This document shows positions 23,390 through 24,650 of a stretch of 41,977 bases of DNA, one piece after another. How positions within the stretch are numbered: the first letter of the stretch is position 1; the number at the start of each line of letters is the position of its first letter. The notes below the pieces were generated by a model, which had not been told where the DNA came from, did not search any database, and was given only the letters and a program-made list of their open reading frames with translations. A program made the position numbers and the translations under genes. Origin of the DNA: Planctomycetaceae bacterium (GTDB taxonomy: Bacteria; Planctomycetota; Phycisphaerae; Phycisphaerales; Zrk34); contig NYZD01000173.1 of NCBI GenBank assembly GCA_002685935.1, forward strand, positions 1-41,977. Reading direction: 5' to 3'.

Positions 23390-23746
23390 ATCAATCCAAC
23401 AACAACACGCCGACCCGTCCCGCATCTCGCCCCCGCCCGCCGCCCGCCACAGTAGATAGATGTCGGTGGCAACCCGCAGTCTGCGGTCCGCCCCGTCACA
23501 AGCCCCTCTCCCTGAAGTGTTGCCCATAGCCCCCCGCGCCCGCTCCCTGCGGTCGAGCGCAACTGGCCGCCGGGAGAATCTCCCACCGCCACGCCTCATC
23601 CCTGCTCATGTCTGCCCGGTACCACCGACGCGTCACGAATCGCCGACGCCGTCAACCCCAATGGCCCCAAACGGCCCGCCACTCTGGCCCTCACAACCGT
23701 CACAGCTGTTAAGATAGATAAACTGAGGTAAATAGTAAAGAAGAAA
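23390..23746. other. Non-coding gap after ubiE
   Basis: I find no credible gene here in either direction; the short reading frames have no family likeness. A GGGAG-AAT-CTCCC mini-hairpin occurs at 23572-23584 and a CCGCA/TGCGG hairpin near 23481, neither followed by a T-run. The last 45 bases (about 23707-23746) turn AT- and purine-rich, with TAAGAT at 23710-23715 and TAAATA at 23729-23734 as possible -10 boxes, but I see no matching -35. Confidence 0.4.
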
Positions 23747-23881
23747 TCCGCCCCTGTCCGATGCTTGAGGTGTCAGACAAACGGGTCTGGCATCCCCCTG
23801 GGCTGGGACTGGGGGCATTGGGCGAAACCACCCGCGCTGGAGCGCGGAATGAGACACGCGTCGCATCGGCACGAGGCCGGA
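23747..23881 (+). ncRNA. Candidate structured leader RNA of the B12-domain-like gene
   Basis: A closing helix can be drawn between 23747-23764 and 23863-23881: TCCG with CGGA, CCT with AGG, GT with AC, and CCGATGC (23758-23764) with GCATCGG (23863-23869), with small bulges. It encloses three hairpins: TGTCAGAC/GTCTGGCA (23771-23778 with 23785-23792, one G-U), CCCC/GGGG (23794-23797 with 23811-23814), and CCGCGC/GCGCGG (23832-23837 with 23842-23847). GTCCGATGC can pair instead with GCATTGGGC at 23815-23823, so two states compete. The element ends 34 bases before the ATG at 23916, which has GGAGG at 23905-23909. I could not match it to a known riboswitch: the cobalamin, SAM and TPP core sequences are absent. 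A free small RNA is an alternative. Confidence 0.4.
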
Positions 23882-23915
23882 CCCCGACGCACGACATTGC
23901 ACTTGGAGGTCACGA

Positions 23916-24650
23916 ATGAGTCAGCAGGTCATGGTCGAACGGTTCTTTGAAACACTCATCTCCGGCAACCGTGCCGATTCCCGCGCCATCCTCGATGAAT
24001 GCCTCGTCGCCGACATCCCCGCCGAACGCATCATCGAACGCCTCTTCTGGCCCACCCTCGAAATGATCCAGAAGATGTACAAGCTCGATAACTTATCGGT
24101 CCTCTCCCATCACTTCGCCACTCGGCTGCTCCGCATGCTCGTCGATCAGACCCAGATGCGGCTCGAAGCCAAACCCCAAAACGGAAAACGCATCCTCCTG
24201 ATCTGTGGCCCCGATCAACAGGAAGAACTCGGCGCCCAAATGGCCGCCGACATGCTCGAAGCCGCCGGCTACGAAGTCTTCTTCGCCGGTGGGGGCGTCG
24301 CCAACGACGAGATCGTCGAGCAGATCGGCTCATCAGAGCCCGACCACCTCGTCGTCTTCTCATCCGCTCCCTCCGACTTACCCCACATCCGCCAACTCAT
24401 CGATCGCATCCATGACCTCGGCATCTGCCCCCGCATGCAGGTCGTCGTTGGCGGCGGCGTGTTCAACCGCGCCGACAGCCTCGCCCAGGAAATCGGCGCC
24501 GACCTCTGGGCCACCACCCCCAACGAACTCGTCGACAAAATCGACAACGAATCCGACCGCCGTGCCCCCGCCGACCAGCGCACCGTCGGTCGCCGCCGCC
24601 GCACCACGGTCGCCGCCACCGCCGACGACCCCGTCAGCGCCGCCGCCTGA
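23916..24650 (+). CDS. Cobalamin-binding-domain-like protein lacking the His ligand
   Basis: 244 residues, soluble. Residues about 1-85 are a helical B12-binding-2-like module (VERFFETLISGNRADSRAIL, LFWPTLEMIQKMY). Residues about 92-205 are a Rossmann-like B12 domain: KRILLICGPDQQEELGAQMA, AAGYEVFFAGGGVANDEIVE, PDHLVVFSSAPSDL, VVVGGGVFNRAD. The usual DxHxxG motif that supplies the cobalt ligand is replaced by D100-QQEEL-G106, with no His, so base-off cobalamin binding is unlikely. The C-terminal 40 residues are disordered with an RRRR cluster, possibly nucleic-acid binding. The architecture recalls the sensor half of CarH-type regulators but has no HTH. SD GGAGG lies six bases before the ATG. 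It is preceded by a candidate structured leader. Confidence 0.85.
   Translation: MSQQVMVERFFETLISGNRADSRAILDECLVADIPAERIIERLFWPTLEMIQKMYKLDNLSVLSHHFATRLLRMLVDQTQMRLEAKPQNGKRILLICGPDQQEELGAQMAADMLEAAGYEVFFAGGGVANDEIVEQIGSSEPDHLVVFSSAPSDLPHIRQLIDRIHDLGICPRMQVVVGGGVFNRADSLAQEIGADLWATTPNELVDKIDNESDRRAPADQRTVGRRRRTTVAATADDPVSAAA

Follow-up and report, generated by a model that had tools for sequence, protein, structure and literature searches.

Sites bound by CsrA are characterized by a GGA in a hairpin loop, often accompanied by another one at the ribosome-binding site (PMC7652899; PMC4894983), and both are present in the CsrA-repressed leaders of E. coli glgC (PMC7652899) and Campylobacter jejuni flaA (PMC4894983). 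The flaA leader is also an example of an mRNA leader that titrates CsrA (PMC4894983). Promoters of the flagellar sigma factor sigma28 (FliA) follow the consensus TAAAGTTT-n11-GCCGATAA in E. coli (PMC2859248), and photocobilin, CarH and AerR regulators share the two domains B12-binding_2 and B12-binding (PMC10979010). In the window, the 41,977-nt stretch of planctomycete DNA analyzed here, elements resembling all three of these systems were found at a single locus, the gene for a B12-fold protein and the region upstream of it (Table 1). We consider it moderately probable that this gene is expressed from a FliA-type promoter and that CsrA acts on the leader that follows to control translation of the protein.

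Table 1. Features of the B12-fold gene and its upstream region; promoter, leader and CsrA assignments are predictions
Feature	Position	Strand	Remarks
A+T-rich block GTTAAGATAGATAAACTGAGGTAAATAG	23708-23735	+	conserved in most family members, judged by eye in orthologous upstream sequences
-35-like element TAAAG	23736-23740	+	T[AGC][AC]AG-N17-CCGAT/ACGAT in 8/8 family members
-10-like element TCCGATGC	23757-23764	+	invariant CGAT across the family; coincides with the inner part of the 5' helix strand of the sequence-only reading
Predicted mRNA 5' leader	23770-23915	+	start site predicted from the -10-like element; about 146 nt
Hairpin 1 (GTGTCAGAC...GTCTGGCAT)	23770-23793	+	loop without GGA
Hairpin 2, candidate CsrA site	23795-23815	+	7-bp stem, loop GCTGGGA
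Hairpin 3, candidate CsrA site	23832-23847	+	6-bp G+C stem, loop TGGA
GGAGG ribosome-binding site	23905-23909	+	holds a further GGA
B12-fold protein gene, 244 aa	23916-24650	+	Pfam B12-binding_2 and B12-binding, no HTH

The putative promoter consists of two short blocks at a fixed distance. CCGAT, or ACGAT in one case, follows the -35-like element after N17 in each of the eight members of the window's family, and no other invariant block of the family alignment is as long as CGAT, which is contained in GTCCGATGC (23756-23764); in the window the exact pattern TAAAG-N17-CCGAT spans positions 23736-23762. A motif search in the upstream regions of orthologues, of which more than 80 were collected first and extended later, returned cCGATGAac, located about 134 nt (median) ahead of the start codon, as well as a GTGAAGA motif, and across the whole order TNAA peaked 18-19 nt before CGATGA. 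Similar arrangements were present ahead of other genes, namely TAAAG-N17-CCGATAA, which in related genomes lies upstream of a gene recognized by eye as encoding a TolB-like lipoprotein, and TTAA-N18-CGATA, which lies upstream of certain flagellin copies, one of them in this genome. The window element has the TAAAG and CCGAT cores in common with sigma28/FliA promoters (PMC2859248). Moreover, FliA is encoded in all genomes of the family; it scored 250 bits in this genome vs a cut-off of 189.6, and the FliA gene adjoins FlhF/FlhG-like genes. In contrast, the spacing differs, since the window and its family exhibit TAAAGAAG-n13-TCCGATGC, two nucleotides longer than the n11 of E. coli (PMC2859248), and the lineage's own TAAAG-N17-CCGATAA examples display the longer spacing as well. 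FliA was also found in genomes without flagellin and the promoter alone therefore does not imply a role in motility or the flagellum. The A+T-rich block upstream of the -35-like element possibly represents an activator or UP site. Exact scanning of whole genomes for GTRAAG-N18-CGATGA produced uninformative matches, the gene itself not being among them, and simple sigma28 regular expressions performed weakly at flagellin loci, where they later matched upstream of certain flagellin copies only. Another candidate, TTATCGGAC as a divergent sigma28 promoter, was discarded because the minus strand had no visible -35 by inspection.

Two of the three hairpins in the predicted leader present GGA in the loop, which was reached in 0.4% of shuffles (p = 0.004). 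The predicted fold places the GGAGG in no separate hairpin loop. As GGA is found in most ribosome-binding sites, its occurrence at 23905-23909 is weak evidence for a CsrA target. The preferred ANGGA core is absent from both loops of the window and enriched in those of its relatives. Among 63 orthologous leaders, extending from the CGAT element to the start codon, GGA-loop hairpins with a stem of 6 bp or more were present in 32 compared to 7.1 +/- 2.1 in dinucleotide shuffles. ANGGA loops occurred in 14 of these leaders vs 1.4 in shuffles, an approximately tenfold excess, and in 17 vs 3.1 when stems of 5 or more were considered. Of all 64 loop triplets GGA was the most enriched (49 observed, 17.6 expected), its complement TCC occurred rarely (6), and directly upstream of the promoter GGA loops were not in excess (14 vs 11.5). 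Similarly, a GGA-loop hairpin was found in 28/63 leaders of this gene and 28/231 leaders of other genes from the retrieved loci (p = 8e-8, with relatedness ignored), and minimum-energy folds of 87 non-redundant leaders contained GGA loops in 51 compared to 17.2 +/- 4.6.

A CsrA-family gene above the cut-off was detected in 101/101 genomes, with a score of 91 bits in the window's own genome, where the FliW, CsrA and flagellin genes are neighbors. The ribosome-binding site of the flagellin gene in this genome is located inside a classical CsrA-type GGA-loop hairpin (CCACAATCAAGGAGGATTGTC, folded on the identical sequence of a relative), and this type of flagellin hairpin recurs in many relatives. 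Most of 100 genomes of the order carry two CsrA-family genes, one canonical and one divergent (about 50-60 bits), while the window's family mostly has one; seven flagellin-less genomes encode the divergent CsrA only. Full-length FliA above the curated cut-off was present in 15/16 genomes without detectable flagellin.

As in known CsrA/RsmA targets, the locus combines an encoded CsrA with a GGA in a leader hairpin loop and another one at the ribosome-binding site. Further points in common with the glgC and flaA leaders are that FliW is encoded alongside CsrA and that hairpins of this type are found in the flaA-like genes of the lineage. In contrast to those leaders, the one predicted here is about 146 nt long, its candidate CsrA sites are positioned well upstream, the A of ANGGA is missing from their loops, and the gene encodes a B12-fold protein. 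According to the proposed mechanism, RNA polymerase carrying a FliA-type sigma factor would recognize TAAAG-N17-CCGATGC (23736-23764) and initiate transcription near position 23770. The stem-loops of the resulting leader would then present GGA in their loops in addition to the one in the ribosome-binding site, and a CsrA dimer occupying both loop and ribosome-binding site would block translation of the B12-fold protein until FliW binds CsrA and relieves the block. In keeping with this account, the two promoter-like blocks stand at a constant distance, GGA loops are enriched in the leaders, and the genome encodes CsrA, FliW, FliA and flagellin. Several features argue against it, including the two loops without the preferred A, the fact that most SELEX-derived CsrA sites have stems less stable than the 6-7-bp ones of the window (PMC7652899), an unremarkable fold of the predicted transcript 23770-23915 (z = -1.2) and the promoter spacing of n13 instead of n11.

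A different mechanism had been suggested by the sequence-only reading, in which 23756-23764 would pair with either 23815-23823 or 23863-23871 and gate the ribosome-binding site as in a riboswitch-like cis switch. Both pairings do occur in the window. The irregular enclosing helix (23747-23764 with 23863-23881) has the claimed 16 pairs (-22.0 kcal/mol) and is part of the minimum-energy fold, the competing duplex of GTCCGATGC with 23815-23823 comprises 9 pairs (-12.5 kcal/mol), and the three enclosed hairpins, all strong and accompanied by two additional 3-bp ones, as well as the GGAGG ahead of an ATG at 23916 were found as described. Statistical support for the two pairings against chance is weak. 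The fold of 23740-23915 reached z = -2.2, an equally good partner for the 18-nt strand 23747-23764 was found in 96/500 shuffles and for the 9-mer alone in 1/500 mononucleotide shuffles, and pairing of the strand around CGATGC in the window gave p ~0.04 with dinucleotide shuffles. The covariation that would be expected of a switch in related leaders did not appear: in the alignment of eight same-family genomes 52.9% of cells of the enclosing helix were paired vs 51.1% with shuffled partners, covariation was absent, its measures being close to those of the shuffles, and RNAalifold returned zero consensus pairs. The alternative helix was somewhat above shuffles and slid controls, yet just 53% paired. 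In an alignment-free test of 58 non-redundant leaders, the CGAT strand paired with its own leader at p < 0.05 in 7% (median p 0.53, dinucleotide shuffles) and no better than after swaps with other leaders; an initial excess of 17% at p < 0.05 with mononucleotide shuffles was lost once dinucleotide shuffles and non-redundant leaders were used. The earlier failure to recognize a known riboswitch core was borne out by Rfam, which gave no family match in strict or permissive mode, nothing on the window reaching gathering level and the sole entry being a chance snoRNA match (E 3.9), and the conserved covarying core expected of a metabolite riboswitch, for cobalamin or otherwise, was not found. Since the shared strand overlaps the conserved bipartite promoter-like element, it is probably absent from the RNA; the 5' helix strand would be a -10 box that remains DNA. 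The notion of a structured, probably regulatory leader before the B12-fold gene is retained, while the two-competing-helices mechanism is very improbable. The case illustrates how a promoter box conserved in the DNA can look like one strand of an RNA helix. A nucleotide search of the window's own genome for more copies of the region recovered only itself.

Of the explanations that accept a leader RNA, action in trans would have the leader, whole or as a short RNA cleaved from it, titrate CsrA in the manner of the Campylobacter flaA leader (PMC4894983) or CsrB-type RNAs. The leaders of several relatives, with two to five GGA-loop hairpins each, would suit such a role, and titration is compatible with repression in cis. 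By eye, a terminator-like end was not seen in the leader, and the window, with two sites, offers few for a sponge, which makes titration as the principal function quite unlikely. Somewhat less remote, though still unlikely, is that the GGA loops serve as a ribosome standby site, bind another protein or affect the stability of the mRNA, or that in this species they lack a function. This would be in line with the non-ANGGA loops and unremarkable fold of the window, and also with the comparison of leaders from genomes with the divergent CsrA only (six independent leaders, derived from the seven genomes and related named loci), in which GGA loops were present in 2/6 vs 51/87, a difference in the direction expected for CsrA control that was not significant. 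A role unrelated to CsrA is harder to reconcile with the roughly tenfold excess in relatives of precisely the ANGGA signature known for CsrA, and with a CsrA-family gene in every genome searched. CsrA control in cis remains the preferred reading.

The B12-fold gene itself is widely distributed, with a convincing match in 100/101 genomes searched; the lone exception (G003), from the window's own family, also lacks flagellin. Its named relatives belong to the Phycisphaerales/Phycisphaerae of the Planctomycetota. The closest solved chain to the protein was the photocobilin AbPcob (8j2y, E 7e-16), followed by CarH and AerR as further matches. In contrast to these regulators, with which it shares both domains (PMC10979010), the protein has no globin, GGDEF or HTH domain and lacks the ligand histidine of the DxHxxG motif. 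Closer examination of 44 aligned sequences revealed no His among the leading residues at this position, where Asp, Glu or Met were commonest. With the cobalt-ligand histidine replaced mostly by acidic residues, cobalamin binding of the usual type appears doubtful. The window's protein additionally has a basic, GRRRRRTTV-like C-terminal tail.

Taken further, the near-universal B12-fold protein of the Phycisphaerae, which has neither a DNA-binding domain nor the cobalamin-ligand histidine, might belong to a flagellar sigma/Csr regulon, with a FliA-type promoter and CsrA repression acting on a rapidly changing multi-hairpin leader that could itself titrate CsrA; we regard this combined scenario as speculative and, taken as a whole, unlikely. 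A search of one paper library, judged by title and abstract, returned nothing on Csr regulation in Planctomycetes. The CsrA-type hairpins, which persist despite changes in sequence and position, would offer a directly testable CsrA target in this group, and confirmation would tie an uncharacterized B12-fold protein to CsrA control.

Additional motifs were observed in the vicinity of the gene and elsewhere. A motif reverse-complementary to GTCCGATAA, gTTATCGGaC, was present upstream of the gene in 49/74 orthologues, sometimes in several copies (e.g. at about 140-330 nt from the gene in L003, L004, L010, L011 and L021), and was not seen in the window. GTCCGATAA was also located upstream of one class of flagellin genes. 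In four related genomes (L223-L226) TAAAG-N16/17-GTCCGATAA preceded a TolB-like lipoprotein gene, and this arrangement possibly marks a conserved regulon of the window's family. At a further locus (L227; G001, contig 45), TAAAG-N17-CCGATAA was found with its first base 39 nt before a gene with a FliM-looking product.
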